Positions 6,427-27,380 of a stretch of 64,000 nucleotides of DNA are shown here, in pieces (position 1 is the first letter of the stretch; each line of letters starts with the position of its first letter). The position numbers and the translations under genes are program-made. The notes beneath the pieces are model-generated. The model was given only the letters and a program-made list of their open reading frames with translations. It did no database searches and was not told the origin of the DNA. The stretch is from Edaphochlamys debaryana (lineage: Eukaryota > Chlorophyta > Chlorophyceae > Chlamydomonadales), in the NCBI GenBank assembly GCA_016858145.1, contig JAEHOE010000013.1, positions 372,001 to 436,000 of the forward strand. The letters run 5' to 3'.

Positions 6427-6430
6427 GGCA
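6427..6430. repeat. Target-site duplication GGCA, left copy
   Basis: GGCA immediately before the outer TG of the element. The same four bases follow the outer CA at 27377-27380. Four bases is short and could be chance, but it coincides exactly with TG...CA ends. Confidence 0.6.
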
Positions 6431-6478
6431 TGTCAAGACACACTATGGGCTACGGCAAAGTGCAGCCGGCTGACCGAA
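6431..6478 (-). repeat. Terminal repeat B2 (48 bp, outer copy)
   Basis: Forty-eight bases, identical to 6921-6968 except one position (a/g at 6436/6926). It forms the outermost left end of the element, next to the target duplication. No copy is present at the right end of the element, where a normal LTR pair would require one. Confidence 0.9.
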
Positions 6479-6919
6479 AATCGGCGAGCAAAGACGCAGG
6501 CGGTGCCTGGGCTCACTTCTAGGACCAGCGCTGAGGCTCAGCGACTGGGTTGAGCGAAGGCTCCTCGGGAAGTCGTCGGATGGCACAGAGACTGCGCCGC
6601 AGGCGCTAGAGGCAGCAGAGCAGCAACACTCTAGTAGTTACAGTCACAGCAGAGTAGATCCGCAGCAAGTAGTGCTTCCGACTTGCCAGTCGGAAGCTGG
6701 GCGTTCGCCTAAGTCCCCCCGATCGGAAGGGCTCATTGCCGTACCTCAGGTGCTCATGCCACGTGTCCCACGAGGCAAACCCTGGTGTCACAACCCTAGT
6801 CACGACCCTAGACGTACCCTCCAGCCCAAACCAGCAGACCAACCACAAAACCCCAGCATCCTACCTCAACTCCCAACCGGCAACCATACTGTGACAGCGA
6901 CGGTACTGTGCTCTGTCAG
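6478..6919 (-). repeat. Terminal repeat A2 (442 bp)
   Basis: Matches 26936-27377 over 442 bases with six substitutions and no indel. It contains a perfect 10-bp inverted repeat with 4-base loop (6674-6697). Flanked on both sides by the 48-bp B repeat. Confidence 0.95.
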
Positions 6920-6920
6920 C

Positions 6921-6968
6921 TGTCAGGACACACTATGGGCTACGGCAAAGTGCAGCCGGCTGACCGAA
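6921..6968 (-). repeat. Terminal repeat B1 (48 bp, inner copy)
   Basis: Inner copy of the 48-bp repeat, lying between the purine tract and A2. Read on the element's coding strand the order is G-tract, B1, A2, B2. Confidence 0.9.
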
Positions 6969-6977
6969 CTCCCCCCC
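6969..6977 (-). promoter_or_regulatory. Polypurine-tract-like sequence
   Basis: On the minus strand this reads as a run of Gs ending GAG directly before B1, the position and composition expected of a plus-strand primer for reverse transcription. If it is the functional tract, the reverse-transcribed LTR would begin with B, not A. Inferred from position only. Confidence 0.5.
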
Positions 6978-7167
6978 TTGGCGACTCTAGAGCCAAAAAC
7001 GCGCAGTCAGGCGGCCTCGAAGCCATACGCTAAGTCAGAAGCAGTTTGCTCAAGCTGTGCACAACAGTTCCCTCCAGCAGAGAAGCCTCAATCCTCCCCC
7101 ATGCTCGCTAAGTGCTCTCACCAGGCTACAGCCAGCAGAACTCATCTCTCTCGGTTCACCACCCTAT

Positions 7168-10100: not shown

Positions 10101-11289
10101 GGGGCGCCTCGCAGAGGGGCAGGCGGCGCGAGGGTGCCGCTGCAGCTGCCGAGAGGTTGCTGGGGTTCCAGGCACCAGATGTTGCCACCTTGCGCAGGTG
10201 CTCGGGAGCCGCGAGGTTGGTGCAGAAGGCACGCAGCGAGTGCTGGGCCCTGCCCATGGCGGCGGTGTCCAGCGTAAGGCAGGTCCCGAAGGGCGTGTCC
10301 GCAGATGCTGGAGGCTCGCACTCCAGCAGGAAGCCGGGCGGGAGTCGGGGTTGCAGCTCTTGGAGCCTGCCAAGGAGCTCTAGCACTCTATCTGGCGGAG
10401 CCAGGGTCGAGTCTAGGTTGCCGAGCACCAACCACTGCTGCCCTGACTTGGCGGAAGCAGCAAGGAGGTGGTCGTTGGTGAGTGGACCGGGCGGCAGCGC
10501 GGCCCAGGGGCTTTCAACGGCGGAGCCGCGAAGCTGTCGGGGAAAGGAGGCACGGAGCCAGCCCAGGCGGCGGCGCAGCAGCGAATGCTCCTGCGCGGGC
10601 GCGCCCAGGGTGTGATACCGGCGCACGGTCCAGCCCGCCCGGAGGCAGGCCTCGAGGCCCGTGGCAGCTGAGGTGCCGCACTCCACGACTACCAGTCCTT
10701 CCATGGAGGCGTGCTCCAGGAAGTGGTGCAAGAGCAAACTGGTGTCAAGAGAGGCGGTGCGGCCCCCGGCAACTCGGCGGGGGTGCGGCGGCAGGAGCGA
10801 GGTTGCCCGGAGGGCGTCTCGGGCCTCGCGCACGACGCGGTTGGCGGTGAGGTTGGCCTGTCGGGTCAGGAGCTGAGCCGCAGTGCACTCGGGATCGGCA
10901 AAGCGCTCGACGGGGTCAGAGGCCGTGCCGTTGCCGCCAGCGAGCCACTCGTCGGGAGAGGGAGCGAGGGCAGAGCCCTGTCCCGTGACGGTGGCCAGCA
11001 GGGAGTACTCCTCGCGAGCGCGCAGCGCCAGGACTTGGACTGCAGACATGAGCGCCGTGGGTTGCGCCGAGGGCGTGACGGTCGGATACGGGACGAGCCG
11101 AGGTGGCGGCGGCTTGGCGTCGGAGTCCTCGTCCATGCGGGCTCCAGAGCTGTCAGCGCTTGAGGGCAGAGGCGAGCGGCTGAGGGTGTCAGCGTTATAG
11201 TGGAGCTGGCCTGGCCAATGGGCGACATCAAAGTCGTACTCTTGCATCAAGAGGGCCCAGCGAGCGTACTGCCCCACTAGGTTTTGGTT
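7168..11289 (-). CDS. Retroelement pol, second part: C5-MTase-like domain, integrase, PHD finger, N6-MTase-like domain
   Basis: Continues in the same frame as the RT/RNase H frame after one amber codon. It opens with the end of RNase H and its connection (HYNADTLSR). About 9950-10700 resembles DNA cytosine-5 methyltransferases: VVVECGTSAATGLEACLRAG like motif I, FLLECEPP where ENV is expected, LDTAAMGRAQHSLRAFCTNL like the motif VIII region, LLPEEIAALTGLEP like the late LTP..A..MG motif; the catalytic PCQ is absent. An HHCC finger (HRLGHWGAR..CPLCDRAN) precedes a DDE integrase with HVDLAGP, VVTDGGSEF and NHPQANGAAERVV. Then a PHD finger (C-x2-C...CDGCGTGWHLYC...C-x2-C; about 8165-8315). At the C-terminus is an N6-adenine-MTase-like fold with VLLDPCAGDE and IISAPH in place of the NPPY/F motif. 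Functions of both MTase-like domains are inferred; both look catalytically degenerate. Confidence 0.85.
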   Translation of the reverse strand, partial: NQNLVGQYARWALLMQEYDFDVAHWPGQLHYNADTLSRSPLPSSADSSGARMDEDSDAKPPPPRLVPYPTVTPSAQPTALMSAVQVLALRAREEYSLLATVTGQGSALAPSPDEWLAGGNGTASDPVERFADPECTAAQLLTRQANLTANRVVREARDALRATSLLPPHPRRVAGGRTASLDTSLLLHHFLEHASMEGLVVVECGTSAATGLEACLRAGWTVRRYHTLGAPAQEHSLLRRRLGWLRASFPRQLRGSAVESPWAALPPGPLTNDHLLAASAKSGQQWLVLGNLDSTLAPPDRVLELLGRLQELQPRLPPGFLLECEPPASADTPFGTCLTLDTAAMGRAQHSLRAFCTNLAAPEHLRKVATSGAWNPSNLSAAAAAPSRRLPLCEAPLGEPYSACDVPGRPVTVFPPGNLATIQLASTASAMPSPLLPEEIAALTGLEPASLLERRNDGTLAVPSAIDALQQGLQTPAAACIFLCAQALQRAFVTPHHMARMPPQQAPPAAPLGGGREIENNTAAQPAALVTAALQHHQSNEHLTSALVSAVADAQESRYCDPWEDKQLLHYLAQGTCPAGIVGEAARRVARRAINYHFDDRSNRLYRRMPNSTMREVPPPERRQAIIQEAHHRLGHWGARRTLCLVQKGYWWQGMSRDVEYVVQRCPLCDRANTVGNVTPPELHPLPIRGPFFRWHVDLAGPLTRTSSGYEYVMVCVEAWTKHVEMIPLRSKGSEEVANAFLANVLARFLAPAKVVTDGGSEFQGAFAALLEQCFIDHRHTSPNHPQANGAAERVVQVCKRSLRKYCAQYASAERWDEYLPWVLMGYRCSPQKSTGKSPFELMYGAPPASQAAELWAEAIDPDADPQWADQLVMLRSHNVQQAAPFNGQNLLTAQWRDRHNYARVRAGGYKPRFTKFNVGDYVYVILRNQNNTLQLPVHDTVLRIVAVSPEGVAELMGRDGTIRKEHVSNLAPCHLQDLDPIVDPRIAVLPLDLPCEICAFPGDESKMVMCDGCGTGWHLYCLRPPLQRVPRGTWTCPDCHACGVTPATIDQLPAPVPREAPQPQIFPSAQARRRLNEAKALEGIPCSRKVRDPATNTFVNRRGTLHYKPDEPHSRPIEARYTDGTVERLTLRAAKACAQPSATALVTATGAPPLVLPDAWDLSSPSARATALLQLRSAPGLASSLPESFPAGPHPAPAQEALNLLLDHLDASRSPVLLDPCAGDETLANAHRARGYSVCANGGWATEAPGWPRLDPLQPGTYRRLATPGESWLIISAPHLELLPFYLPLAVAMVPLVVAFIPRRMLTAPPDAWAALLNTFTEDERLAIITGDTCGYVNGKPGAWLLVFRDATMRAQLMRGIGKGRAGHWVHA

Positions 11290-14200
11290 CTACATCAGCC
11301 AGAGCAGGGGCGTGTGGTCGGTGACCAGGATGAAGCGTGGCCCTATCAGGTACGGGCGCAGCATCTTCATTGCCCAGCAGGCAGCCAGCATCTCACCCTT
11401 GTAGGAGGTGTAGTTGCGCTCGTGCACGTTGAGTGAGCGCGAGATGCAGGCAACCATGTACTCATGCCCTTCATCATCCAGTTGGCCCAGGACGGTGCTG
11501 ATGCCTACGTTGGAAAAGTCAGTGTGCAGGATCAGTTGACGGTTGGGATCAGGCTTGCGGAGCAGCCGGTCGTTGGTCGAGAACTCGGCCTTGAGCTGGT
11601 CCAAGGCCTCCTGGTGGCGCGGCTGCCAGGTCTCGGGGCCCCACGCGACACCCTTCTTGGTGAGCTTGTAGAGCGGGTTGGCGATGCAGGCGAAGCGGGG
11701 GATGTAACAACGATAGTAGTTGCAGAGGCCAAGCAGGGCTTGGAGCTCGGTCAGCGAGCGAGGGGGCTGGATGGCTTGGATTGCAGCGACCTTGGCCTGA
11801 ACCGGGCGGAGCCCGTCAGCGCTCACCATGTGGCCCAGGAACTCTATCTTGTCCGCCGCGACCACAGTCTTGTCGGGATGCAACTTAATGTTGATCTTGT
11901 CCAACATCGCGAGAAACCGCGTGAGATTCTGCTTGTGCTCCTCTGCCATACGGCCGGTTACTGCGGCGTCGTCGACAAAAAGGTACACACAGTCCTGCAG
12001 GCCGTACTTCCGTACGTGGTGCAAAAGTACTCGCTGCCAAGCTGCCGTGGCGTTGACGGCGCCGTACATCAACCGTTTGTACCGCCAGAGGGTGTTGTTC
12101 CACCAGAACGAGGTCTTATCACGATCCTCCTCCGTGAGCGGCAGTTGGTTGAACGCGGCGCGGCAGTCGCACTTAGTAATGAATCGCGCGCCCAGGATGC
12201 GATCGAACAGGTCTTCCGGCGCCGGCGGCCGGAAATAATCGCGCATGCTCGCTGCATTTATACGGCGCGCGTCCGCACAATAGCGGTACTTGTTGGATTC
12301 ATATGAACCATCAATTCCCTTCTTACGTGGCAGGGTTACATTCATCGCGTAACGGGTGGAGTTGGACGGCTCAATGATGTCGGCGCCAAACAGCTCGCGA
12401 CACTTGGTATCCTCAACCAACCGCTCGGCAGCCGAATGTCTTCGCGGCGCCTCGAATATTGGGTTGTCGTGCTTGAGTTTGAGTCTCACTGGCCCCAACT
12501 CGCCTCTATAGCACCCAATGTCCTTCAGACTCCGCGCGAACAAGTGATCGTACTTGCCAAACAACGCCCTCAGACTATCACGCTGTGCCTCGGTCATGTC
12601 GGTGCGTATGCATAAGGTATAGCCTGCCTCCTGCTTGACTAAAGTGGAGTCTTTGGGCGGTGCCCTAGCCCCGTCGGGAGTCGTCACATTCGCAGGAGAA
12701 GGCCCAAGTGCAGCTGCGTCAGGCGGCTCTATCGGCGGAGCCGCAGGCCTCTCTACACTAGATGCATTTGCAGGTGCAGTGCTCGCGACAAAGGTGCTCG
12801 GTGGCTCTGTTAGAGGTGCCTCAGCCGAGGGCGAGCCCGCAGGCGGGGCCTGGGGCGGTGAGCGCCTCGCCGGCGGTGCCGGGTCACGCAGCTGGATGCG
12901 CCGCATGGCTTGCTCCAGCGGGGTGGTGGCGGGCGACTGCTCCAGCTGCGCCCAGCTCGGAGCCAGCCACTGCCCCCCCTGAGGGTAAGCCCGATGCGGA
13001 ACGCAGTTGGGCGCCGCGTCCGACAGCCGCCAGCAGCCCAGGAAGACCAGCATCACGATGGCGAAGGTGAAGGTCTTGTAGCTGTTGAGGCGCCAGCGCG
13101 CCGGCGTCGCCGACTTGGTGTTGGCATCGGGCGGTACGTACTTGCGCTTGGACACCATGGCGCCCGCCGCGGCCGCCCAGCGCTCCGCCCGTTGCTGCAG
13201 GAACTGTCGCTTGACTAGGCTCAGGTACTGGCGACGCGCCTGCTCCATGGCGGCAAAGGCCTGCGCACGCCGCTCCTCCTGTCGGCGCAGCTCGCGCCTT
13301 GCTTGGCGGGCCAGCTTGCGGTTGATGCTGCGCGTGACGCGGCGCAGGATCATGCAGCCCAGCCTCCACTGCACGTGCTCCATCCAGTCATCCAGCTGCT
13401 CGTCCAGCTCCGCGTCATCATCAGACTCCTCCTCACTGCTGGTCGAGTGCCAGTCCTCGTCCTCGGTGTCGGTGGTGTTGGCACCGAAGGTGTCGTACGG
13501 CTGCACGGGGCCGTAGACGGGGCTGGCCGCGATCAGGCGCGTGATGGCCCTGGGGCAGTGCGGGAGGGGAACCCAGATGCCAAAGGTGGTGGCACCATAA
13601 GCAACAGTGCGGGCACCGAGATCGCAGAGCAGGTGCAGGGCGCAAGCGAAGGACACGCCGTAGACGTCGTGGTCAATCAGGCCGCAGCTGGGGAGGGAGC
13701 CGGAGCCCTTGGCCTGCGACTCAGTACCGGCGGCGCCGGGAGCCGAGGACTCACCAGTCTCGAGGGGCTCCGCAGCGGGGCTGAGACCGGCGGCGCCGGG
13801 GCCGTTGATGCTGCGCTTGGCGGGGGTGTTGGCCTTGACCCAGAAGGGCAGCTGGCGCGGAGTCGCACCGCACTTGCTGTCGGGCAGCTCCTCCTTCCTC
13901 CGTTCGCCGGCGGGGCCGGGAGCGGAGTCACCGTTGGTGGAGGCAGGTTGCTCGTCCTGCGCGGTGGTGTCAGCGCAGGCCTCAGGCTTGGTCGCGAGTG
14001 GCGGGGCCGGCTCGAGCAGCTTTGAAGACGAGGCGAGCTCGGACTCGGGCTCGGGCTCGGACTCCACCTCCCCCCCTGCTCGAGGCCGGGGCTGCCGTGA
14101 GGGCGCATCAGCGGATGGCGTTGTCGGTGTACCGGTTGCAGAGCCAGAGCCGGGTGCACCAGGAGGCGACGTCATCGATGGGGTAGCTGAGCCAGCACTC

Positions 14201-16779
14201 GTCGCCGGCGGGGCGGATGCAGATGTTGGCTCACAGCAGGGAGAGGAAAGGGCGCCCAAACACGATGCCGTAGGGCAGGTCTGTCTCGGGCAGGACGGGT
14301 GCCACGGGCACGTCCACCATGATTGCTGCGGGCTCATCTGGGGCACCGTTGCGGGCCAGGGTACCGTTGATGAACTCGCGCACGTCGCGTGCCGTGAAGT
14401 CGGTGATGTACTTAGCGTTCTTGGTGCCGCGCGCTCCAAAGATCCTGATGGGCTCGGTTTCGTGGTTGAGCCCGGGCACCCCAATGTGTTCTGTGGAGAT
14501 GGGCATGTGGCCAAAGAGATCTCGACGCACGAGGCAGCTTGCCCCGGTGAGACCCATGTCGACGCTGAACGCTGCTGTCGTGATGTTGAGCCCCGCGCAC
14601 ATGATCTCGATCTTGGGAATGCCTTGGGACTCCCATCGGCCGGCCCCGGCCCCGGCCCCGGCCCCGGCCCCGGCCCCGGCCCCGGCCCCGGCCCCGGCCC
14701 CGGCCCCGGCCCCGGCCCCGGCCCCGGCCCGGCCCGCCCGGCCCCGGCCCCGGCCCCGGCCCCGGCCCCGGCCCCGGCCCCGGCCCCGGCCCCGGCCCCG
14801 GCCCCGGCCCCGGCCCCGGCCCCGGCCCCGGCCCCGGCCCCGGCCCCGGCCCCGGCCCCGGCCCCGGCCCCGGCCCCCCGGCCCCGGCCCCCCCGGCCCC
14901 GGCCCCGGCCCCGGCCCCGGCCCCGGCCCCGGCCCCGGCCCCCGGCCCCGGCCCCCGGCCCCGGCCCGGCCCCGGCCCCGGCCCCGGCCCCGGCCCCGCC
15001 CCGGCCCCGGCCCCGGCCCCCGGCCCCGGCCCCGGCCCCGGCCCCGGCCCCGGCCCCGGCCCCGCCCCGGCCCGGCCCCGGCCCCGCCCGGCCCCCGGCC
15101 CCGGCCCCGGCCCCGGCCCCGGCCCCGGCCCCGGCCCCGGCCCCGGCCCCGCCCCGGCCCGGCCCCGGCCCGGCCCCAGGCCCCGGCCCGGCCCCGGCCC
15201 CGGCCCGGCCCCCGGCCCCGGCCCCGGCCCCGGCCCCGGCCCCGGCCCCGCCCCGGCCCCGCCCCGGCCCCGGCCCCGGCCCCGGCCCCGGCCCCGGCCC
15301 CGGCCCCGCTCGCTCGTTGTCGCCAAACGGTAGACCGGTGCTCAGGTCGTTGCCGTCCCCGGGCGCAACATTGTCGCTGCACGAGGTGCCGTAGTAGCGG
15401 GTAGACGCCAGGGCGCAGACAGGAGGCGGTGGCCTCGGCTGAGCTACGGCGGCCTCGCGTTCTGCACAGCGCGGGAATGGTGCCGCCATGGTGTCTTCAC
15501 CGAAGATCACGTCTCCGACCACGATGGCCGAAGGCCGGCGCCACATGTAGGCCTGCTGGCTGGCCGGCGGGGATTGGGGTTCCGAACTCGGTTGCTCGGC
15601 CGGCTGCGGTGGCACCAGGGCCTCGTGGACTGTCGAGACCGGCAGCGGCGGCGGCAGGTAAGGGTACCGCGACACCAGAGTCGCAGTCAGCTCCGGGGCC
15701 TTGGGGGCGAGCTCGGCCCCCACGGGACGCGGGCCTTGGTCCGCAGAAGCTGCCGCCTCCGGAGCTGCGGGCGGAGCCCGAGTCGCGGGGATCGCGGTCG
15801 CTTGGCGCTTGGGCGAAGGTACTGCAGGCGGGGCCTGGGCGCCAGCCTCGAGCGCTTCTCGGTTGCGCACCTGTGCGCTGCCGCTGAGACCCGCCGCTGC
15901 GACGTCGCGCTGGGGCGCCGCCAAGGTCGAGGGCCCGGCGGCTGCGGCAGAAGGCGCCCCCGAGGGCCGGCTGCGCTCCTGGCGTGGCGGCGGCGGGGTG
16001 GGCTGAGGTGCCGGGAGCGGTCGCTGCTCCCGCCAGCCGATGGCTTGCTCCTTGAAGGCGAGCCAATCCCTGAGCTTGCGGCACCAGTCGATGTACGCAC
16101 TGATGAAGTAGGTGCTGGAGTGGACGTGGCGTTCACTCTTACGGTAGACGGAGACGTTGGGGCGATCGAGGTCAGGGCCCATGCACGCTAGCACCTCCTC
16201 CATCCACCGGCACTCGCGGCGAAGCTGCTTGTCACCTTGGTCGTACGCCTTGGCCAGGGGAAGCGCAGGCAGGTCCTCGGGCCACGGTTGCAGATCAATC
16301 TCGTTGATGGGCTGGAAGAAGCCCTTGATGTCCAGGCTGCCGAGCGAGTCCTGCAGCTCCGGGGTCCACCGTAGCAGCGTGGGACCGCCCAGCAAAGCGT
16401 GCAGCAGGCAGTAGTCCTGGCTGTGCCGCGACCAAGGTGGGTAGCACAGCGGGTTGCCGAGCCGGGGGCCGGCCCCTCGGTAGTTCTCGTGACCAGGGAA
16501 GACGGCCAGATCTTGGTAAAGCCTGCAGTTTGGTCGCCTCGCGCAGACAGTTGCAGAGGGTGCAGGGGCGGCGCGAGCCTGAGAGCCGTCCAGGCGTCCC
16601 AGGGGATCGACTGCGGGACCTCTGCGGAGAGCCTGAAGGTCTGCGGCCGCCAGCTCCACCACTGCTGCTACGGCGGGGTTGGCGGTCGCCTGAACGCTCG
16701 CGCTCGTGGTCACGGCCTCGGCTCTCGGCACCTCGGTCGCGGGAACGGGAGCGGCCGCGGCTGGACTGGCGCCCCTCAT
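11290..16779 (-). CDS. Retroelement pol, first part: Pro-rich leader, GGGGCC region, TM segment, reverse transcriptase, RNase H
   Basis: One long frame from an ATG that overlaps the upstream stop (ATGA) to an amber codon. It begins with about 250 residues of plausible folded sequence (CYPPWSRHSQDYCLLHALLG), then Pro/Ala-rich sequence and a Gly-Pro/Gly-Ala/Gly-Arg tract encoded by the GGGGCC repeat. Between the tract and RT lie an acidic stretch (STSSEEESDDDAELDEQLDD), a basic helix-rich stretch, and a hydrophobic segment FTFAIVMLVFLGCW near 13030-13075. RT spans about 11820-12420: PRKKGIDGSYESNKYRYCAD, FITKCDCRAAFNQ, the catalytic YLFVDDAAV, KIEFLGHMVSADGL. RNase H follows with LHTDFSNVG, a Glu in YTSYKGEMLAACWAM, and LVTDHTPLLW, ending at the amber. 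The protease is in another frame, so this frame alone skips it. Confidence 0.88.
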   Translation of the reverse strand: MRGASPAAAAPVPATEVPRAEAVTTSASVQATANPAVAAVVELAAADLQALRRGPAVDPLGRLDGSQARAAPAPSATVCARRPNCRLYQDLAVFPGHENYRGAGPRLGNPLCYPPWSRHSQDYCLLHALLGGPTLLRWTPELQDSLGSLDIKGFFQPINEIDLQPWPEDLPALPLAKAYDQGDKQLRRECRWMEEVLACMGPDLDRPNVSVYRKSERHVHSSTYFISAYIDWCRKLRDWLAFKEQAIGWREQRPLPAPQPTPPPPRQERSRPSGAPSAAAAGPSTLAAPQRDVAAAGLSGSAQVRNREALEAGAQAPPAVPSPKRQATAIPATRAPPAAPEAAASADQGPRPVGAELAPKAPELTATLVSRYPYLPPPLPVSTVHEALVPPQPAEQPSSEPQSPPASQQAYMWRRPSAIVVGDVIFGEDTMAAPFPRCAEREAAVAQPRPPPPVCALASTRYYGTSCSDNVAPGDGNDLSTGLPFGDNERAGPGPGPGPGPGPGPGRGRGGAGAGAGAGAGAGGRAGAGAGPGPGAGPGPGRGGAGAGAGAGAGAGAGAGAGGRAGPGPGRGGAGAGAGAGAGAGAGGRGRGRGGAGAGAGAGAGPGPGAGAGGRGRGRGRGRGRGRGRGGRGRGAGAGAGAGAGAGAGAGAGAGAGAGAGAGAGAGAGAGAGAGAGAGAGRAGPGPGPGPGPGPGPGPGPGPGPGPGPGPGPADGSPKAFPRSRSCARGSTSRQQRSASTWVSPGQAASCVEISLATCPSPQNTLGCPGSTTKPSPSGSLERAAPRTLSTSPTSRHATCASSSTVPWPATVPQMSPQQSWWTCPWHPSCPRQTCPTASCLGALSSPCCEPTSASAPPATSAGSATPSMTSPPGAPGSGSATGTPTTPSADAPSRQPRPRAGGEVESEPEPESELASSSKLLEPAPPLATKPEACADTTAQDEQPASTNGDSAPGPAGERRKEELPDSKCGATPRQLPFWVKANTPAKRSINGPGAAGLSPAAEPLETGESSAPGAAGTESQAKGSGSLPSCGLIDHDVYGVSFACALHLLCDLGARTVAYGATTFGIWVPLPHCPRAITRLIAASPVYGPVQPYDTFGANTTDTEDEDWHSTSSEEESDDDAELDEQLDDWMEHVQWRLGCMILRRVTRSINRKLARQARRELRRQEERRAQAFAAMEQARRQYLSLVKRQFLQQRAERWAAAAGAMVSKRKYVPPDANTKSATPARWRLNSYKTFTFAIVMLVFLGCWRLSDAAPNCVPHRAYPQGGQWLAPSWAQLEQSPATTPLEQAMRRIQLRDPAPPARRSPPQAPPAGSPSAEAPLTEPPSTFVASTAPANASSVERPAAPPIEPPDAAALGPSPANVTTPDGARAPPKDSTLVKQEAGYTLCIRTDMTEAQRDSLRALFGKYDHLFARSLKDIGCYRGELGPVRLKLKHDNPIFEAPRRHSAAERLVEDTKCRELFGADIIEPSNSTRYAMNVTLPRKKGIDGSYESNKYRYCADARRINAASMRDYFRPPAPEDLFDRILGARFITKCDCRAAFNQLPLTEEDRDKTSFWWNNTLWRYKRLMYGAVNATAAWQRVLLHHVRKYGLQDCVYLFVDDAAVTGRMAEEHKQNLTRFLAMLDKINIKLHPDKTVVAADKIEFLGHMVSADGLRPVQAKVAAIQAIQPPRSLTELQALLGLCNYYRCYIPRFACIANPLYKLTKKGVAWGPETWQPRHQEALDQLKAEFSTNDRLLRKPDPNRQLILHTDFSNVGISTVLGQLDDEGHEYMVACISRSLNVHERNYTSYKGEMLAACWAMKMLRPYLIGPRFILVTDHTPLLWLM
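14231..14640 (-). CDS. Retropepsin-like protease region in a shifted frame
   Basis: Just downstream of the GGGGCC tract (element direction) one frame reads like a retroviral-type aspartic protease: KIEIMCAGLNITTAAFSVDM, then LTGASCLVRRDLFGHM, and at the end GIVFGRPFLSLL followed by a stop. The spacing and the final (I/V)-x-G-R-P-F-L motif fit. The residue before TGAS is Leu rather than the catalytic Asp, with an Asp a few residues earlier, so activity is doubtful. It is not in frame with the flanking long frame; the repeat or an indel must account for the shift. No start codon of its own is needed if it is reached by frameshifting. Confidence 0.6.
14640..15307 (-). repeat. (GGGGCC)n hexanucleotide tract inside the pol region
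   Basis: About 670 bp of nearly pure GGCCCC on the plus strand, hence GGGGCC on the element's sense strand, roughly 110 units with scattered one- or two-base interruptions that shift the repeat phase. In the sense frames it encodes Gly-Pro, Gly-Ala and Gly-Arg dipeptide repeats. The interruptions place the upstream leader and downstream protease in different frames. Seen directly; exact unit count in the genome may differ because such tracts assemble poorly. Confidence 0.95.
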
Positions 16780-17390
16780 CTCGGGATGAGGCGGGCCGCC
16801 GCGGGTGGTCGTGCATGGCCAGGGCTTGGACCTCCCTTCGGCGGAGCCGAGGCAGCCGACGTCGGCGCTTGGGCGTGGTGCGGCTCCACCTCCTCGAGTT
16901 GGGGCTCAGGCAGCTCTCCACGCGCGTCCGCCTCCGCCAGCTCCTCGTCCTCGTACACGAGCATCTCCTCCTCGACCACCTCCTCCGCAGTGTCGACGCT
17001 GGTGGCGAAGGCCACGCTGGCGCCGTCCGTGGGGCTCCAGTCCCATATGCGGATGCGGCGGTCGCTCAGCCCCAGCGAAGATGCCAGCAGGTGAGCGCAG
17101 TCGCTGGGATCGAACTGCATGGTGGGGATGTGCACGGAGACGGTCTTGAGCTGGGCCTTGGCCTCATCCACCGGAGGTGACGAGGGCTCGGAGGGCAGCA
17201 GGGCCGTGGCGCAGCAGGCGCGGAGCGAGGCTGCCACCTTCTCCAGCTCCGGCGGGGCCGGGACCAGCGCCACGTGGCCGTTGATGGTCTCGTCGCCCTG
17301 GTGCAGCCCGGAGCGGAAGCGGAGGTGCGGGCGCGGGTAGTAGTCGTACAGCATGCCGCACTGGTGAAAGAGCGGCCCGCCCCACAGCAT
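16776..17390 (-). CDS. Retroelement gag C-terminal / linker frame
   Basis: About 205 codons ending RLIPR-stop, where the stop overlaps the pol ATG as ATGA. Begins at the nested insert: LWGGPLFHQCGMLYDYYPRP follows directly, in frame, from GDFLVVPDDWAAGLFTM on the other side of the insert, so the two halves were one frame before insertion. Otherwise unrecognised; contains an acidic stretch (VEEEMLVYEDEELAEADA) and Pro-rich end. No catalytic motif seen. Probably a structural part of the gag polyprotein. Confidence 0.7.
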   Translation of the reverse strand: MLWGGPLFHQCGMLYDYYPRPHLRFRSGLHQGDETINGHVALVPAPPELEKVAASLRACCATALLPSEPSSPPVDEAKAQLKTVSVHIPTMQFDPSDCAHLLASSLGLSDRRIRIWDWSPTDGASVAFATSVDTAEEVVEEEMLVYEDEELAEADARGELPEPQLEEVEPHHAQAPTSAASAPPKGGPSPGHARPPAAARLIPR

Positions 17391-17442
17391 CTTTGGGGCT
17401 GGCGTTTCTGTCAATCCCGAGCAGTGCGTACAGGTCAGTCAT
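17391..17442 (-). pseudogene. DnaJ (Hsp40) gene, N-terminal fragment of the J domain
   Basis: ATG at 17442 begins MTDLYALLGIDRNASPKD, the classic first helix and turn of a J domain, cut off by the insert boundary after the codon for Lys. The continuation is at 23574 on the same strand, upstream of this fragment in the present orientation, so the two pieces cannot be joined by ordinary splicing. In the current locus translation would run on into retroelement sequence out of frame. Confidence 0.85.
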
Positions 17443-17758
17443 CACCGCCACTTTCTCTATCCGTCAGAGAGACTCTTTGCGCGGCGAGTTGCCGCGCAAT
17501 GGCCATGCCCATGTCCAATGGCACGCCGACCTGCTGCTGTTCTGCCTTGCTGACGACCTCCCACATGGCGGTGCTGGACCCGCGAGTCAGCCGCAGCACG
17601 GCGGCCGTGCTGCCCGCGCCGTTGCAGCCGTGTGTTGACACCGACCGACCGTCCACGAGGATGACCCGCCACCCGACCGCCGTGGCCACCTTGTCGAGGT
17701 CATCGTCGGTGCTTGGGCAAAAGTCTGTTCCGACCTTGAGCTCGCCCCCGGCTCCCAC
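17435..17758 (-). CDS. Unknown short reading frame overlapping the DnaJ start codon
   Basis: About 100 codons with balanced composition, including KVGTDFCPSTDDDLDKVATA and RESGGDD before the stop. Its stop overlaps the first codons of the DnaJ fragment by eight bases. A possible splice acceptor lies just before it (minus strand, near 17765), so it may be a final exon of a gene whose earlier exons are to the right. I recognise no family. Could instead be 5' UTR of the DnaJ gene. Confidence 0.35.
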   Translation of the reverse strand: MGAGGELKVGTDFCPSTDDDLDKVATAVGWRVILVDGRSVSTHGCNGAGSTAAVLRLTRGSSTAMWEVVSKAEQQQVGVPLDMGMAIARQLAAQRVSLTDRESGGDD

Positions 17759-17920
17759 CCCTGGCTCCCGCCCTTTGCCCCTGCCCCTTGCCCCCCTACT
17801 TACCCTCGCCCCACTCTCTCCCCCTTATGCCGGACTCGCACACAACCCTACCCCACAGACGCTGGTTTGCAGATTCTTTGAGTTCAAGATGGGGCGGGGC
17901 AACAGGGAGGGGGGGACCGT

Positions 17921-19345
17921 ATGCGCCCGCTGTTCGTTGAGTGGCACCTGCCGGAGGTCCGGGCTCAGTGGTACGACGAGCTGCCGCTGCACCTGGAGCA
18001 CCCAGCCCATGCTCCACATCCACGAGCATGGCCCCCTCCCCCCTCCCCCCTCCCCCCTCCCCCCTCCCCCCTCCCCCCTCCCCCCTCCCCCCTCCCCCCT
18101 CCCCCCTCCCCCCTCCCCCCTCCCCCCTCCCCCCTCCCCCCTCCCCCCTCCCCCCTCCCCCCTCCCCCCTCCCCCCTCCCCCCTCCCCCCTCCCCCCTCC
18201 CCCCTCCCCCCTCCCCCCTCCCCCCTCCCCCCTCCCCCCTCCCCCCTCCCCCCTCCCCCCTCCCCCCTCCCCCCTCCCCCCTCCCCCCTCCCCCCTCCCC
18301 CCTCCCCTTGTGCTGCCTCCGGAGCAGCTGGAGCCTCTGCCCCTGGCCCCGCCGGCGCAGCCTCAGTGGCTGGTGGGCGAGCACGGCAGCTTCCTGCTTG
18401 CCCCGCACCTGGCGGCTGATGACGCAATCGCAGTCCCGCAAGGCCAATCGCATGCGGAGCTGCAGGAGCAGCTGGCCCGCGCGCGCGTGGCCCCTGTCTG
18501 GCGTGGGCCGCCGCCGCCCTTGCTCATCCCCCGTCCCCCAATCCCCTTCCCGCCACCGGGCGCGCCTCCGGCTCCGCCTCCAGAGGAGCCTCAGTCGGAG
18601 GACCCAGCCACGGAAGACGTGGAGGAGTCGCTTTGGGGGTGGATGGTCGCCAGCTGCAGAACCTGGGCCTGGGCCTGGGGCGCTGGGGGGGGAGCAGCAG
18701 GCGGAGCCAGCGGACAGCGTCGCTCCTGACCCCACGCGACAGGCCGTAGCTCGTGACTCCACGTCTCGGGCCGCCTTGCCCGCGGCAGAGGGCGGGCTCC
18801 GGCCGCCTGCACCGCCGCCTGCACCGCTGCAACCGGCACCGCCGCCGGAGCCGGCGCAGCCGCAGGAGCCAGAACAGCCGCCGTTGGACCTGAGCCGTTA
18901 CATGGGCGAGCTGGACCTGGAGGACCCGCTGATTAACCGCTCAGTCTTCCAGCAGCGGCGGCTCAGCGACCGTCGGTGGACCCCGCACCGGTCCGTCTTC
19001 CTCCACTGGCTGGCGATGAGGGGATCACCCTGGGCCCCAACAAGGTCACCCTCGACGTTAACCCAGTGGCTCGGTTCGTGCAGGGCCCCGAAACGGATTC
19101 GACCCGGCTCAGCGCTGCAAGCTTTGCGCTGCTAGAGCAATGCATGACTCTGGACTCCACTCGGGCTGCTGCTGACGTTGGCAAGGTGAACGCCCAGGCC
19201 AAGAAAGCTGTGAAAAGGAATGTCATGAAAAGTGTCATGAAAGATGTCAATGTCACGGAGGATGTCAAGGAAGATGGCCTTGTCACGTTTGCCAGTCCAG
19301 TCCGGGAGTGCGCGTTCATGTACACGATGACGGTCCTGCTCAAGC
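17921..19345 (+). CDS. Possible Pro-rich gene on the plus strand of the insert (uncertain)
   Basis: Three overlapping frames on this strand read as plausible protein in turn: LPEVRAQWYDELPLHLEHP before the CCCCCT tract, EHGSFLLAPHLAADDAIAVP and a Pro/Glu-rich stretch after it, then LDLSRYMGELDLEDPLINR, then ITLGPNKVTLDVNPVARFVQ and a lower-GC stretch with repeated Val-Met-Lys. They are joined neither by clear splice sites nor by one frame, so this is either intron-rich, frameshifted, or non-coding. No family recognised. It converges on the recombinase-like gene. Confidence 0.25.
18030..18306 (+). repeat. (CCCCCT)n microsatellite
   Basis: About 46 near-perfect copies of a six-base C/T unit, G-rich on the other strand. 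In plus frames it would encode Pro-Ser-Pro-Leu-Pro-Pro. Lies within the nested insert. Confidence 0.97.
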
Positions 19346-19346
19346 C

Positions 19347-21111
19347 TCAGGTCACGCTGCACACTGACCGCGCGGCCCTCCTCCGCAAGGTGCGGCACGT
19401 GGCCCAGGGGAAGCCGACAAAGATGTGGCGGGAGTCCTTTGGCCGGAGAGGCGAGCCCCCCTGCGCGACCCATGGCGCCCCGTTGTCCTGCTGGGCTGAC
19501 ACGTACAGGCCTGACAGGCTTGCGTACGAGCGCATGCTGTGTCCTTTCTTGCTGACCAGGAACCCACGCTGCATGCGGCGGCCCTTCACGAGGGTGGGCC
19601 GCGCCCGCTGCAGGTAGGCAGATACCCTCCTGCAGAGCTCCTCAGGCAACGGGATGGTGACGGTCCTCTTGGTGGGCTTTGCGGCACGAGCGGTCTTGTA
19701 GTGCACCAGCACGGCGTTGTACTTGGGCACCCCGGAGGCCCAGGTCCCCACGGCCTCCAGGCGGGTCCCCTTGCACGTGTCTGGGTGGCGGCAGTTGGCG
19801 TGCTCACACGGCACGCTGACCCCCGGCGCTCTGTGGTAGCGGCGTGGCAGGACAGTACGTTAGGTGGCAAGAAGGATGGCACCGGATCGATAATGGGGAC
19901 CAAATCTCTCCCGTGTTGCTAGCAAGGCGAGCTCTCAGTGCGCGCCACGCAGCTTACCGCATGGTCCACAACACTTCGGGGCGCAGGGGGGGGACGAAAG
20001 CCCCCAGTAGCAGGTCCACGAGGAGGGACTGAAGCATGAGCTGTGCTGTCTTCTTGGAAACCAGCTCCTGCTCCCCTCCCTCCTCGCCGCCCCCCTCCTG
20101 CCCGCCCTCCCTGCCCACTTCCCCGCCGGCGCCCTCCTCCCCCTCCCCCTCCCCCTCCCCCTCCCCCCCCCCCTCCCCCTCCCCCTCCTCCCCCTCCCCC
20201 TCGTCCTCTCCCTCATCCTCCTCAACTCCCTCCCCCTCCCCCTCCTCCCCGTCCCCCTCGTCCTCCCCATGCTCCTCCTCATCCTCTTCATCCCCACTAT
20301 CCTCCCCCTCCTCCTCCTCCTCCTCCTCCTCCTCCTCCTCCTCCTCCTCCTCCTCCTCCTCCTCCTCCTCCTCCTCCTCCTCCTCCTCCTCCTCCTCCTC
20401 CTCCTCCTCCTCCTCCCCCTCCAGCGCACGCTCAACCTACATAGAGGGGCAGGGGGAACCGTGGTGTTGGGCATGCGTCACCCTTGTACAGGCTCGGCTC
20501 ACAGTAGCACGCCCGTACGGCAAGATGAAGACCCGAGCTACACGGCAGGACCCCGCACCTGGGCGTACAGCTGGACCGAGAAGGCCAGCGCCTCCTCCAT
20601 GGTGGGGTACCGGGGCGCGGGCTTGGAGTTCGGAGGCGGTCTTGCGTCCTTGTTGGCTCCTAGCTGCGCCCGGAAGTTCTTGACCCAGGTTATCAGCCTC
20701 TGCAGGTAGTGGGCCTGTCCGGGGCAAGCCAATGGAAGGGGGAGATGGGGGAGGGAGAGGAAGAGGGACAGTCGTGTGGACTGACTGGGGTTCCAATGGG
20801 GGCTGTGGGGGGGTGGCCCATGCTACACAGCAGCCATGTACGACACACGCACGCACGGCACGCACCGGTGTGCCGTCCTCGTTCGGCGTCCACTCGCTGG
20901 GGCACCTGCTACGGCCGCGGCTGTCTAGGTACGCCAGCACTCGCAGCATGTTGTTGCAGTCATTGGCGAGGGCCCCAACTGCAGCATTCATGACATTCTT
21001 TTCATTATTGAGCGACTGCAAAGACTGCAGCAAATGCATGACAGGTCGTGGTGATCTGAGCACATAGTAGAGTGTTTCATAGCAGGGCATACAGCGGGCC
21101 GACCAGCGCAT
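19347..21111 (-). CDS. Tyrosine-recombinase-like (Crypton/DIRS-type) gene, four exons, probably broken near its end
   Basis: Exons 20866-21111, 20559-20699, 19958-20436, 19347-19830 join with consistent phase. Order of features: a helical N-terminal region (LNNEKNVMNAAVGALANDCN, ITWVKNFRAQLGANKDARPP) like a core-binding domain; a long poly-Glu tract; then LMLQSLLVDLLLGAFVPPLR, where the PPLR arginine fits catalytic box I; then HYKTARAAKPTKRTVTIPLP, a beta-region typical of these recombinases, and LRPKDSRHIFVG resembling the second conserved box. The frame stops 23 codons later and I could not place the catalytic tyrosine; the same frame past the stop has YMNAHSRTG, weakly like the expected (G/N)HS box. 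Would cut and join DNA at a short shared sequence. Family call is from motif memory, without a search. Confidence 0.5.
20303..20416 (-). repeat. (GAG)n tract encoding poly-Glu in the recombinase-like gene
   Basis: CTC repeat on plus, about 38 units, GAG on the coding strand. It continues into a wider Glu/Gly/Asp-rich stretch to about 20080, separating the core-binding-like part from the catalytic-like part of the protein. Confidence 0.95.
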
Positions 21112-21692
21112 TCTGTACCACTATTTGTACAGCGCACAGGTGACTTCGGCCTGTGGTTTGACCACTTAATTGTGTCAAGATTGCAAAATATTGCAATACA
21201 ACCACCGGTGTAATTATGGTTATCACCATGGCCCGGCCTGTGCGGGACGACCGGACTGTATTATGTAACATTACTTGTTCGCCAGAGCTACCCCGCTCTA
21301 CGAGCGAGACCACTCGTGGGGACCACTCGGCCCGACCAGTTCGGCCCTTGGCCAAACTCCACCACGCCTTGGCACCAGTTGGCGATCGCTGCCAGTTATT
21401 GTTGTACGCAGGCCATCACCTGCGACGGTTGTGTCTTCCGCTCGGTTGGTCGCTTGGGGGCCGGGGTCACACTCAGCACCTTCCAGCTCCCTCATGCCTC
21501 CTCCGCAGCGCCAGGGTTCAATAGTCCGTATCTCGCCGTTGTCAGTTTGTACTTGTAACGACTTAGAGCTGTAGTGAAGGTGGGTCACGGCGCATCGCAG
21601 CTCAATACGAGCCCGCGACGCAACCACAACGCTTTCACATACTTGTGTTCAACCGTTCCTGCTACTATCTCCGCCAATAGACCCATCCCGCA
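21112..21692. other. Insert segment with no supported gene
   Basis: Lies upstream of the recombinase-like gene and should hold its promoter. Base composition is noticeably more A/T-rich than elsewhere in the window around 21120-21280. No clear coding frame. Confidence 0.5.
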
Positions 21693-22130
21693 TTGGAACC
21701 TGCCGCGTCACAAATGTGGGCCATCAGCGACGTGCGCACAGAGCACCGCCAACTCACCGGACTCCCGGACGTACGTGAGGTCATGCTAAGCAACACCAAA
21801 CCCTGCGAGGGTTGGGCTGGGCTGCACAGCGTCAGTCGTAGCATGCGCGATGCTGTCGACCTCAACACCGAAAGCCTCACTATCAAGGTCGCGCACCTGA
21901 AAGCCTACAGTTCTCGCAACATCACGATGCCCGAGCTCGTGGGGCGCCTGCTGTTGAGGGTGCTCCGAGTGCGGGCGCTGACCGTGGAAACTGTGGACGA
22001 CGAGAACCCATTGCTAAACCGCTTGCTCCAATACATCCGGGAGAGCACGCTTCTGCCAGCAAGAGTACAGACGCTCACTGTTGTGCGGGGACGCTGTAGA
22101 GGGCTCCTCGACGTTTTGGCAGCAGCTTGA
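21693..22130 (+). CDS. Hypothetical protein of up to 145 residues
   Basis: Single plus-strand frame; if the first codon is not used, an ATG a few codons in (MWAISDVRTEHRQLTGLPDV) would start it. The composition is mixed and plausible (VSRSMRDAVDLNTESLTIKV, TVETVDDENPLLNRLLQYIR). The HSVSRSMRDAVD part vaguely recalls F-box helices but not enough for a call. It lies between the recombinase-like gene and the DnaJ gene, on the opposite strand to both. Confidence 0.4.
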   Translation: MEPAASQMWAISDVRTEHRQLTGLPDVREVMLSNTKPCEGWAGLHSVSRSMRDAVDLNTESLTIKVAHLKAYSSRNITMPELVGRLLLRVLRVRALTVETVDDENPLLNRLLQYIRESTLLPARVQTLTVVRGRCRGLLDVLAAA

Positions 22131-22746
22131 GGTCATGATGTGATCATGTCGAGAGAGTTAGTGAAGGTTGGGTGGGTGGTTTAGGGTTTAGGGCGAGAAT
22201 GATAGAGGTAGCAATAGGGATAGAGGTAGTGCACTCAGAGTGATAGACTCGTCAGACAACAACGTCGTTCATGATGATGATGATGATGATGATGCACGCT
22301 TGCCAAAGATGCGTCTGAACGCAAGACGGTACTTGACGAGCTGGTCGGCCGCGTCAAGCGCGGGGTAGACCACTTTAAAGTGGACACGGAGGCTTGCGCC
22401 GGCAGCAATTGCGGTGATCCCCTTGCCCGGGAAGCTCATCGGAGCCGTTGGGTCTCGGTATCCCGGGGCGTGCACCTCAATGTCACGACAGTCGCAGTGG
22501 TCGAGCACAAGCGATCACCGAAACCCGCAGAGCACCTCCTCAAGGGTCAGGGTCAGCGTCACAGTGATGTTGCCTGTCCTTGAGCACAGCACCGCTTCCA
22601 ACTCTGCGGGCAGCGCGTGGCGGATGCGGACACATATCTGGGACCCTGCAACGTGCGATACATCCCACACCTCACCATCGGCAACGCCTGGCAGAACGCG
22701 CACATCAAAGTGTCGCTGCCGGTACGTGGACCCCCGCCCATGGCAG

Positions 22747-22815
22747 GCCCTTGTTGCAGTGTGTTCCAGCATCCTGGCGCCAGGATGCTGGATCACACTG
22801 CAACAAAACGTGGGC
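22747..22815. repeat. Long near-perfect hairpin in a DnaJ intron
   Basis: Two arms of about 28 bases beginning TGTTGCAGTGTG, meeting at GGCGCC, with one or two mismatched positions. One arm occurs again at 23024-23054 without its partner. The two copies bracket about 200 bases of intron. It looks like a small palindromic mobile element or a foldback; also capable of forming a strong RNA stem. Confidence 0.85.
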
Positions 22816-23023
22816 CCTGTTGGGACCCAGGGCGGAGGGGCGCGCATGTCCCCAGTTCGAATCCTAGCGGGTGCGAGCGCAGGTGCGCTGCCTGCAGGTC
22901 TGGATTTCGTCGTGATGCGGAAAGTGTGGCGGTCCCAGCAGGCGCCAGGGCACTGGCCCCTGAGCAGCGAGCTTATCGGCTAGGGCGTGGTGGCGTCCTT
23001 GATGGTCCCACAGAGTCCACGGT

Positions 23024-23054
23024 TTGTTGCAGTGTGATCCAGCATCCTGGCGCA
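23024..23054. repeat. Half copy of the 22747 hairpin arm
   Basis: Matches one arm of the palindrome at 22747-22815 (GTTGCAGTGTGATCCAGCAT), followed by unrelated sequence. Same orientation as the left arm on the plus strand. Confidence 0.85.
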
Positions 23055-23574
23055 TGTTTTCGCGTCCTGAGTCGCGGGGCGCACGCCGCGGCCGCCCGAC
23101 CACCGCTCGCAATGTGCATCATGACGTGGGCCTCGTGCATTGATGCAAAGGACACGTTGCCGCGCCCCGCGCAGACGGTGCACTGTAGGAACGGGGTCTG
23201 CCCACAGCCCCGACACGTGGGACACGGTTCCAAGAGCTCATACTCGACGTGCTTGGTGCAGCCGTTCTGGATGTCTCGCAGAGACACCTGCACGTCTATG
23301 ACTTCATGCCCCTGAGCGTGACCCTGAGCGTGATCGAGACCCTGACCACCCAAACCCATGACGACTTCAAAGAGGTGGGTGAAGATGTCGACGTCCTCGA
23401 CTCCTGTATCGGGTGTTTGGGCCGACCCCGTCAGGTCGTATGTGTTCCACCGCACGGGGTCGGAGAGCACATTGAACGCCATTGAGATCTCCTTGAACTG
23501 CGACTCCGCCTCAAGTGTCGGATTCTTATCTGGATGCCACCGCAGCGCCAAGCTCTTGTACGCTCGCTTGACAT

Positions 23575-26500
23575 GGTGAAGAGGCCGGCCGCCCAGTCGT
23601 CGGGGACGACCAGGAAGTCCCCGCAGACGCGCAGCTCGGACGCGGTGCCAGGCGTGATGACGTTCCACACGCGGGCGATGCCGAGGGGTCGGCTGCTCTG
23701 GCGCAGGGACTTGACGCCGGCGTTACAGGGCTCCAGCTTGACGCCGAGGCTCTCGTACAAGCTCTGAATCATCAGGCCCACCGTGTTGCACATGGTGTTT
23801 GGCCCGATGCCGGGAGGGAAGATCAGGGTGGCGTCGGCCTTGAGCAGGCCAGCGCTGCGCTTGGGGTCGCTGTTGTCGACGTAGTGGAGGGAGCCGGCGA
23901 GCTCGCTCTTCAGGTACTGCTTGATCTCCTCCACCTTGGAGCCGGCGGTGGCGGCCGTGGATGAGCAGGCGAGGGCGGAGGCCTCGGGCGCCACCTCGGG
24001 GGTCTTGAGCAGATCCAGCAGCTCGGCCATCATCTTGCCCAGGATCTCGAGCGCCGCAGCCGTCTTGCCCAGCGCCATGGGGCCGAAGCGGACGTTAGAG
24101 CTGCCGTCCTTCATGTGCGAGAAGGAGACCTGCTCCACGGGCGGCAGGCACATGGAGCTGGGCAGCGGCCCGGGGGGCAGCTGCCGGAAGCTGGCCGGCA
24201 TGGGCTCCTTGGTGGTGTTGAAAGCCGCGGCCAAGGAGGCCTGCGGCGGCCACACGGTCTGGCCCTGGATTGGCGTTGGTGGCCCAGTCGGGGACACGGC
24301 GGGGCCGGTCTCCTTGCTGGCGAAGCTGCCGACGCTGTTGCACGCGCTCATACCCCCCCCCCAGCTGGGAGACCGAAGCCGACGTGGCCAGGGCTGCGCC
24401 GGGAGTGCCGTACTCCACGTACGTGACGAACGTACTGTTGTACGGGTGCTGGGCCACCGAGAGGACGTCTGTGTGCAGAGCGGAGGCCGAGCTCGGCACG
24501 TATGAGGATGGCGGTGGGTGCAAGAAGGGCGGAGCCCTGTAGCCCATGGGCCAGGACGGTGGCGGCGGCACACCGGGCGGCGGGGCCGCCGGGGCCCGGA
24601 AGGAGGCCGAGGACGGGAAGGCACCTGCAGGCGGAGCCTGAGGGCCCTGGCCGTAGCCGTAGCTGTGGCAGTACGATGAGGGCGGCGGCGTGGAGTAGCC
24701 GTAGCCGTAGCCGTAGGACGCGGGACCCTGGCCGTAGTGCAGCGCCGCAGGCGGAGCCTGGGACTGCAGGTACGGCGAGGCCTCTGCAGTGTAGGCCGCA
24801 TGCTGCGGGTTGCCCTTGCCTCGGTTGTTGTCCTTGGGCTTGGCGTAGTCCTGCCTGCGGGGGCGGTCGCCCTGCGGCTGCTGCTGGCGCGGCGCCGAGA
24901 GCAGAGCCGCGTACTCCGGCTTCTTGCGGACCAGCTCCGCCCAGGCGTTGTCCATGTTGCTGGACTTGGGGTGGCCGGGCAGTGCGGTCAGGTTGCCGGC
25001 CTTGGCGTTGGCCGTGCAGAAGTCCACCGAGTGGTGCTTGGCGTTGCAGAAGGAGCAGTTGCCCGTGGAGCCGGTGGCGGGGCCGGGCTCCGCCTTGGGC
25101 CAGCGGGGCTTGCTGCCGCCGCTCGACTGCTGCTGCTGCTGGCGCCCGCCCGCCTGGCCGCCGTAGCCCCTGCCGTTGTCCTGGCGACCGGAGTGCGTGG
25201 CCAGGGCCGAGACGCTGTTGGCCATGCGCTCGATCTGCGACGAGAGGCGGGCGATGTCGGCCAAGCCCACGCCGGAGGCGCTGGTGCTCTCGGAGACTGG
25301 GCCAGCAGACGTGGCGAGCGCCTTGACCTTCTTGGGGTCCTTGACCTTGCTGTCGGCCACCTCCTGCTCGATCCGGAAGGCACTGTAGATCTTGTGGCAG
25401 CGGATGATGGCCTTGGCGAGGTCCCAGGCGGTGGGGTCGCTGTCCTCCTTGCCCAGGTAGCTGACCTTGATGGTGTCGTTCATGAAGCTGGCCTTGACCC
25501 AGTGCGACTCCATGACGGCCCGGAGCCAGCGCTCGGTGCGGACGCGCCTCGAGATGCTGGCCTCGCTGATGGGCCTGACGAAGGAGAGGAAGCGAGCGCC
25601 CGCCGTCATGGGGTCCTCGAGGGGCTCGACGCCGAAGGTGTCGTAGCTCTTCTTGGACGTGGGGTCCTCGCGGCCGAACTTCTTGGCCAGGGCCTCCAGC
25701 AGGTACTCGCAGGCGTCGAGCTTGAGGTCAGGGAGCTTGGCCTGGCCCTTGTACTCGGGGGGATTGGCGTCACCGGCGTGGAGCAGGGTCCACTTGTCCT
25801 TGTGCTCAGCCAGGGCCTCGGCGCCCTCGGTCGCGCACCAGCCTTGCACGACCAGGTTGAGGTTGTTGCCCCCATCCTTGGTGAGCCCCCCGGCCATGCC
25901 GGCAAGGATGAGCTCGGCAATCAGGGCCTTGTTGTCGCCTCGGTCGCTCATGGCCCACTGCTTGACGAACAGGCGAGCGGACTGCAGGAAGGCAGGAAGG
26001 GAAGTGGGCTTAGCATCAAAGCTGGGGCAGTTGCGGTCGCCCATGTCTTCGTCTTCACTCCTCCTGGGCGGAGCCCGGGGAGCTAGCTGAGCAGCAGGTG
26101 CCGGCGCAGGCAGCGCCGGGGCGGGAAGCGGAAGGCCTCCGCCGTCCCCCTCAGCAGGTGCTAAGCCTAGGGCCCCCTCAGCCGCAGGCTGGGGGTGCTG
26201 TGCTTGATCGGCCGGGGCGGGGCCCGGGCCGAGATCTTGCTGCTCACCAGGCGCGTCGGGGGGTGCCGGCAGGCGATGCCCGAGCTCCTCAGCGAGCGCA
26301 GGTAGGGCCCCCGCAGCCGAGGGCTGCGGGGCAGGCGGAGAGGGAACGCGGGCGGGGCCCGGTCCCGAAGACGCTCCAGCAGCGTTGCCACCAGAGTTGG
26401 AGCCAGAAGGGCCTGCAACGTCGTTGCGGGTTGGCTCAGTCGCGAGGTCGGCCGAGGGCGAGCGACGATGTTGAAGCTCACCGGAGCCTCCGGATTTCGA

Positions 26501-26974
26501 CGGCCCAGCACCGGTGGAGCCGGTGGGGTCTTGCTCAAATAGCGGGTTGCCGCGAAGAGCAGTTGTCGCCGCTCGCGGGTCAGCAAGGCCTCGTCCGCGA
26601 GTTGGGCTTGCAGGTGCCGAGCGAATGGGAGTACCTGCGTTTCGGGCGTTCAGCAGAGCAGCCAAACGATCAATAGGGAGATTAGCCTCCTGCTCTTCTT
26701 GTCTGCGGAGCTCGCGCGCCGCAGCTCGACTCGCGGTCGTGGACACGGGCGTGAGCTGAGGAATCGGCAGAGGCGCGGCCGCGGGCCCACGCCTATCAGC
26801 ACCAGACGCAGTCTGTTGCTTAGACTTCCTAGAAGACTCCTTGGAAGCCAGATCGCAGCGCGGGCGGAGCCCGGAGCGATCAAGTCTGGAGGTCCGTAGC
26901 GCGCGGCGCCAGCGGGCAAAAGAGAAGTCGGAAGCAAATCGGCGAGCAAAGACGCAGGCGGTGCCTGGGCTCAC
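23575..26974 (-). CDS. Retroelement gag with CCHC zinc knuckle, one internal frame change
   Basis: Long frame beginning in terminal repeat A1; the first codon available there is GTG, and no ATG occurs before MGDRNCPSFDAKPTS, although the sequence before it reads like protein. A conserved-looking helical core (PAFLQSARLFVKQWAM, TERWLRAVMESHWVKASF, DLAKAIIRCHKIYSAFRIEQ) fits a capsid-like domain, followed by a Gln/Gly-rich stretch and the knuckle CSFCNAKHHSVDFC (C-x2-C-x4-H-x4-C). Then Tyr/Pro/Gly-rich sequence. At a 10-G run (24353-24362) the coding sense moves to another frame and continues MSACNSVGSFASKETGP to VVPDDWAAGLFTM at the nested insert. The G-run is either a programmed or mutational frameshift. 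Confidence 0.8.
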
Positions 26975-27377
26975 TTCTAGGACCAGCGCTGAGGCTCAGC
27001 GACTGGGTTGAGCGAAGGCTCCTCGGGAAGTCGTCGGATGGCACAGAGACTGCGCCGCAGGCGCTAGACGCAGCAGAGCAGCAACACTCTAGTAGTTACA
27101 GACACAGCAGAGTAGATCCGCAGCAAGTAGTGCTTCCGACTTGCCAGTCGGAAGCTGGGCGTTCGCCAAAGTCCCCCCGATCGGAAGGGCTCATTGCCGT
27201 ACCTCAGGTGCTCATGCCACGTGTCCCACGAGGCAAACCCTGGTGTCACAACCCTAGTCACGACCCTAGACGTACCCTCCAGCCCAAATCAGCAGACCAA
27301 CCACAAACCCCCAGCATCCTACCTCAACTCCCAACCGGCAACCATAATGTGACAGCGACGGTACTGTGCTCTGTCAG
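26936..27377 (-). repeat. Terminal repeat A1 (442 bp, 5' end of the element)
   Basis: Partner of A2 at 6478-6919. The internal flank begins directly without a B copy. The 10-base right arm of the A hairpin occurs again just inside A1 (26926-26935). I could not identify a convincing tRNA primer-binding site next to it. Confidence 0.95.
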
Positions 27378-27380
27378 GCA
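27377..27380. repeat. Target-site duplication GGCA, right copy
   Basis: GGCA directly after ...CTGTCA at the right end of terminal repeat A1; partner of 6427-6430. Confidence 0.6.

Follow-up and report, generated by a model that had tools for sequence, protein, structure and literature searches.

A 6.2-kb insert within a Ty3-type retrotransposon of Edaphochlamys debaryana, very probably a reinserted extrachromosomal circle opened inside a DnaJ gene

In wine yeasts, a circle-borne 17-kb segment from Zygosaccharomyces bailii, region B, has been inserted in permuted forms; within the portion of that report used here, four of the six insertions have two to three nucleotides in common with their target, the insertion site is as a rule left unaltered, and no recombinase is invoked (PMC3053389). 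Circle-mediated segmental duplications in humans also display a permuted order, with microhomology or none at the joints (PMC7450558, PMC7188851), and one of the two accounts, in the sections drawn on here, describes small indels and joints with one or two bases in common (PMC7450558). The colour-sidedness translocations of cattle, as presented in the part of the account considered, relocated very large segments by way of an opened circle, with the donor known. In Crypton and DIRS elements, a circle is joined to its target where the two share a short identity, and the target is not duplicated. Judged by titles among the matches listed, no such case is described in the circle-DNA literature on Chlamydomonas or green algae.

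The locus described here lies in a 64,000-nucleotide stretch of E. debaryana DNA, referred to as the window (bases 372001-436000 of contig C13), and the genome searched with it is an assembly of 141.9 Mb in 502 contigs. The published assembly of this species, in the part of its description drawn on here, has 142.14 Mb in 527 contigs with 67.1% G+C and is built from long reads (PMC8226300). Within the window, an insert interrupts a retrotransposon and carries a broken DnaJ gene (Table 1). As far as the sources used here go, the insert resembles region B in its circular permutation and in the extent of the identity shared at four of the region B junctions, whereas region B is known from several permuted copies and has a functional replication origin (PMC3053389), and here there is one copy and no donor was found. 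It is like the human duplications in its permuted order and short shared identity, and unlike them in that their donor remains in the genome and their joints often carry small indels (PMC7450558, PMC7188851). The cattle translocations share relocation through an opened circle and differ in segment size and in having a known donor.

Table 1. Coordinates of the insert, its target, and the features within them (window positions)
Feature	Position	Strand	Basis
Complete Ty3-type LTR retrotransposon (target)	6431..27376	-	RT, RNase H, integrase, and PHD domains; terminal repeats
CAT, left junction (ATG on the minus strand)	17388..17390		Run of exactly 3 bp common to both sides
Insert, probable linearised circle, 6184 bp	17391..23574		Abutting flanks in 16/17 relatives; DnaJ circular permutation
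DnaJ start, 17 codons and first base of codon 18	17391..17442	-	J-domain match on joining; PSSM score
129-aa ORF running into the DnaJ start	17435..17824	-	No relatives found
Repeat family X, internal fragment	17914..19024		About 92% to a copy on C242
Recombinase-like ORFs, seemingly exons of one gene cut upstream	19347..20969	-	Weak assignment
Repeat family Y, internal fragment, cut at both ends	20970..22095	+	94-97% to 12 copies holding the whole fragment
Rest of DnaJ: J domain, zinc-finger part, then C-terminal piece in another frame	22269..23574	-	Pfam; homolog profile
MITE-like repeat, 303 bp, inverted ends, inside DnaJ	22751..23053		Copy on C187 96% alike
CAT, right junction	23572..23574		Run of exactly 3 bp common to both sides

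The gag frame of the retroelement is split at one ATG and reads through in frame once 17391-23574 is removed and the flanks are joined, as the initial annotation had proposed. The insert has CAT at both edges, and its identity with the target amounts to exactly 3 bp. When 17 related retroelement copies of the same assembly were searched with the left and right flanks kept apart, both flanks adjoined at the insertion base in 16 of them; in copy L050, the right flank is visible over 244 bases only, where the contig ends. The flanks of the target differ from the 17 copies by about 3 to 8%. The joint between insert and target is conservative and without target duplication, which is also expected of non-enzymatic circle insertion, and joining the insert ends neither gains nor loses a base. 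As at least three shared bases are expected in about 5% of random joins (our own arithmetic, with even base composition), the 3-bp identity would represent microhomology at most.

The one exception among the relatives, a copy on C15 (L045, C15:236672-241172), is broken 11 bp before the insertion site and runs there into an inverse-orientation piece of its own terminal repeat. An insertion hot spot at this gag site was considered and dropped in view of what the C15 break joins.

The other broken partner is the DnaJ gene. Followed down the minus strand from 23572, it enters the J domain at profile position 17, and the missing start is present at the left edge of the insert in the right frame. 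With the insert ends joined, the J domain (PF00226) scores 76.8 bits, against 53.9 bits for the large piece alone, spans profile positions 1-63 of 63, and contains the HPD motif. The abutting 18-mer reaches 28.6 bits on a PSSM built from 52 homologs (which themselves have a minimum of 25.8 and a mean of 41.6 bits), and across all six reading frames of the window, which contain 94,569 stop-free 18-mers, the runner-up reaches 11.5 bits. Because the DnaJ start lies at the far end of the insert and the J domain is restored on joining, the insert can be read as a linearised circle. The initial annotation had described a DnaJ gene cut at the same triplet as gag with its first 17 codons at the far end, a J domain rebuilt by joining the ends, and a circle that shared only ATG with its target, and all three descriptions agree with these results.

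Its expectation that DnaJ would be intact in the circular state did not hold. The gene is interrupted by the 303-bp MITE-like repeat, resumes after it in another frame according to the homolog profile, and contains a TGA at 22515-22517, and these features persist across the joined ends; because of them, DnaJ is probably a pseudogene even when the ends are joined, and an intron could account for part of the interruption. The zinc finger (PF00684) has an E value of 0.083 in Pfam, under the cut-off, and the homolog profile locates the zinc-finger and C-terminal regions in two different frames. No DnaJ C-terminal domain was found by Pfam in the last two DnaJ pieces, and the stretch beyond the TGA was assigned by eye. 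Relatives of the 129-aa ORF that runs into the DnaJ start were looked for, and none were found.

With respect to the origin of the gene, the best two database relatives of DnaJ show 36 and 38% identity across 82% of the query, and phage records match it at 28.5-33.5% (best 15 of 29 records). A viral origin was tried and set aside: viral contigs were scanned twice, with a reach limited to close relatives, and none was confirmed. A search for the zinc-finger family in the host gave three places, all below the cut-off and all outside the insert, and J-domain protein matches elsewhere in the assembly number two, at 45% each; neither search places the gene. Third-position G+C is 0.71-0.74 in the DnaJ pieces, 0.76-0.77 in the retroelement, and 0.83-0.88 in the recombinase-like exons, values that are not decisive as a clue to the origin of DnaJ.

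The target carries RVT_1, RT_RNaseH, Integrase_H2C2, rve, and PHD domains. GGCA is present on both of its outer sides (6427-6430 and 27377-27380), and between its terminal repeats there are 6 differences over 442 positions. Ten relatives were examined at both ends, and both ends are present in eight; a matching 4-bp repeat lies outside the element in seven of these eight (it is absent in L065/L066), and the terminal repeats are without mismatch in seven of the eight. The GGCA flanks and the terminal-repeat mismatches, set against these relatives, suggest that the window copy arrived through ordinary integration and probably predates them.

The terminal repeats of this family have an arrangement of their own, seen at window positions 6431-6968 and 26936-27376 and in relatives L051-L070: there is one 442-bp repeat at the 5' end, and at the 3' end a 48-bp repeat flanks that repeat (A1 ... 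B1-A2-B2). A split-repeat arrangement of this kind is found in PAT-type elements; here it occurs alongside a DDE integrase and flanking repeats of 4 bp. As both 48-bp copies are present in 8 of the 10 relatives, the arrangement is a family structure, and a permuted two-LTR circle, with the 48-bp repeats around the left terminal repeat, was rejected. A long GC-rich hexamer array at 14640-15308 breaks the similarity of the window retroelement to its relatives.

Apart from DnaJ, the insert is a patchwork of internal fragments of repeats and single-copy sequence. Family X is large and includes a 1961-aa ORF, and within its fragment a CCCCCTC array at 18032-18307 stands in for about 80 bp. Family Y extends over several kilobases, its copies are about 98-99% alike where compared (L003-L015, L028-L033), and its two long ORFs, of 562 and 576 aa in L030, appear F-box/LRR-like by eye. 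No target duplication was seen around the MITE-like repeat. One end of this repeat carries a 56-bp palindrome that looks perfect, and a matching copy in inverted orientation lies at the opposite end; the palindrome also has copies on several contigs.

Searches of the assembly used the single-copy parts at 17391-17900, 19025-20030, and 22096-22750 as DNA and the protein sequences of the DnaJ and recombinase-like ORFs; for 20031-20969 the only search was that with the whole insert, in which the best 40 of 155 candidates were scored. In the 141.9-Mb assembly, no second copy of the single-copy parts was found, these searches of DNA parts and ORF proteins gave no DnaJ donor locus, and no tandem DnaJ array was found.

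Taken together, the locus very probably arose when an extrachromosomal circle of about 6.2 kb reinserted once, by a non-homologous route, into a Ty3-type element already resident in the genome. The circle would have been broken open within the DnaJ gene it carried, and a single conservative event would have linked it to gag, with 3 bp common to both partners and no base gained or lost on either side. It may have consisted of excised host DNA, the donor of which is now lost or unassembled, and the joint could have been made by end joining or template switching with no dedicated recombinase. The insertion would have followed the landing of the retroelement, with DnaJ already decaying. The observed basis for this reading is the empty site in relatives, the circular permutation, the 3-bp identity, and the position of the retroelement's 4-bp repeat outside the insert; the patchwork content, the single copy, and GGCA around the whole element also count for it. 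As neither a donor locus nor a second copy was found, it is the continuity of DnaJ, and this one feature, that points to a circle. Against reinsertion of a circle, both joints are free of indels, whereas end joining is not always so, and the search of the alga's own genome scored only the best candidates.

The initial annotation preferred a recombinase-driven circular element whose DnaJ gene is intact only as a circle, with a one-off circle insertion as the plain alternative. On this view the insert would be a mobile element with Crypton- or DIRS-like action, its circle recombining at a fixed DnaJ site with the target ATG, the enzyme possibly being supplied in trans. The conservative 3-bp joint without target duplication is consistent with such an element, and the 170-aa ORF does have a PHROG integrase match, but only at E 0.24; it belongs to no Pfam family and has no PDB match up to E 10, and a search with the 303-aa chain of apparent exons gave no homolog at E up to 1. 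Only 2 of 300 shuffles attained the score of 49 given by the best alignment to one recombinase stretch of the same genome, a result that may mildly favour recombinase kinship, but the alignment leaves the catalytic motifs uncovered. The upstream side of the gene is cut by the family Y fragment, the ORF begins at a repeat-fragment edge, and a second copy with the same ends was not found in the assembly. From these sequence comparisons there appears to be no significant support for the ORF being a tyrosine recombinase. As 15 of the 19 listed integrase-domain places in the genome pass the family cut-off, none of them in the insert, help in trans is conceivable. Crypton and DIRS elements differ from the insert, which has no supported recombinase, no family of copies, and no fixed ends. 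We consider the mobile-element reading unlikely, and the plain alternative fits better; the linearised circle of the initial annotation stands, and the recombinase-driven element does not. Also improbable is a plasmid- or virus-like extrachromosomal element with a divergent DnaJ, integrated conservatively by a recombinase at three bases.

Linear DNA could give a similar outcome in two ways. A fragment that was exactly one unit of a DnaJ-containing tandem array would yield the same permutation, but this requires its two ends to coincide at a single base of the unit, and no such array was found in the assembly, which makes this account very unlikely. Alternatively, CAT at both ends might reflect a 3-bp target duplication around a linear fragment, with the ATG belonging to the target alone; in that case the stretch from the conserved glycine to the KRAY motif would lack one residue of the J domain, whereas with the ATG counted it fits the profile over its full length, and we give this proposal very little weight. 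Although the surroundings are rich in repeats, an assembly misjoin is highly improbable: it requires two reciprocal misjoins at one base, the divergence of the flanks from the 17 compared copies makes reads placeable, and long reads lie behind the published assembly, if it is the same one, according to the part of its description consulted (PMC8226300).

For reinsertion of a circle, the 3-bp scar appears, by comparison with the portions of the yeast and human reports considered here, to fall within the range of circle insertions in both. As the scar is like the published yeast cases, it points to a known process and not to a new mobile element. One of the two breaks falls in a retroelement gene that has many uninterrupted relatives, the other in a conserved domain, so both broken partners are readable to the base, and the insert would be an exceptionally clear relic of a reinserted circle. 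Should cases like this be frequent, circle insertions could be counted, without sequencing any circles, by screening coding genes for circular permutations.
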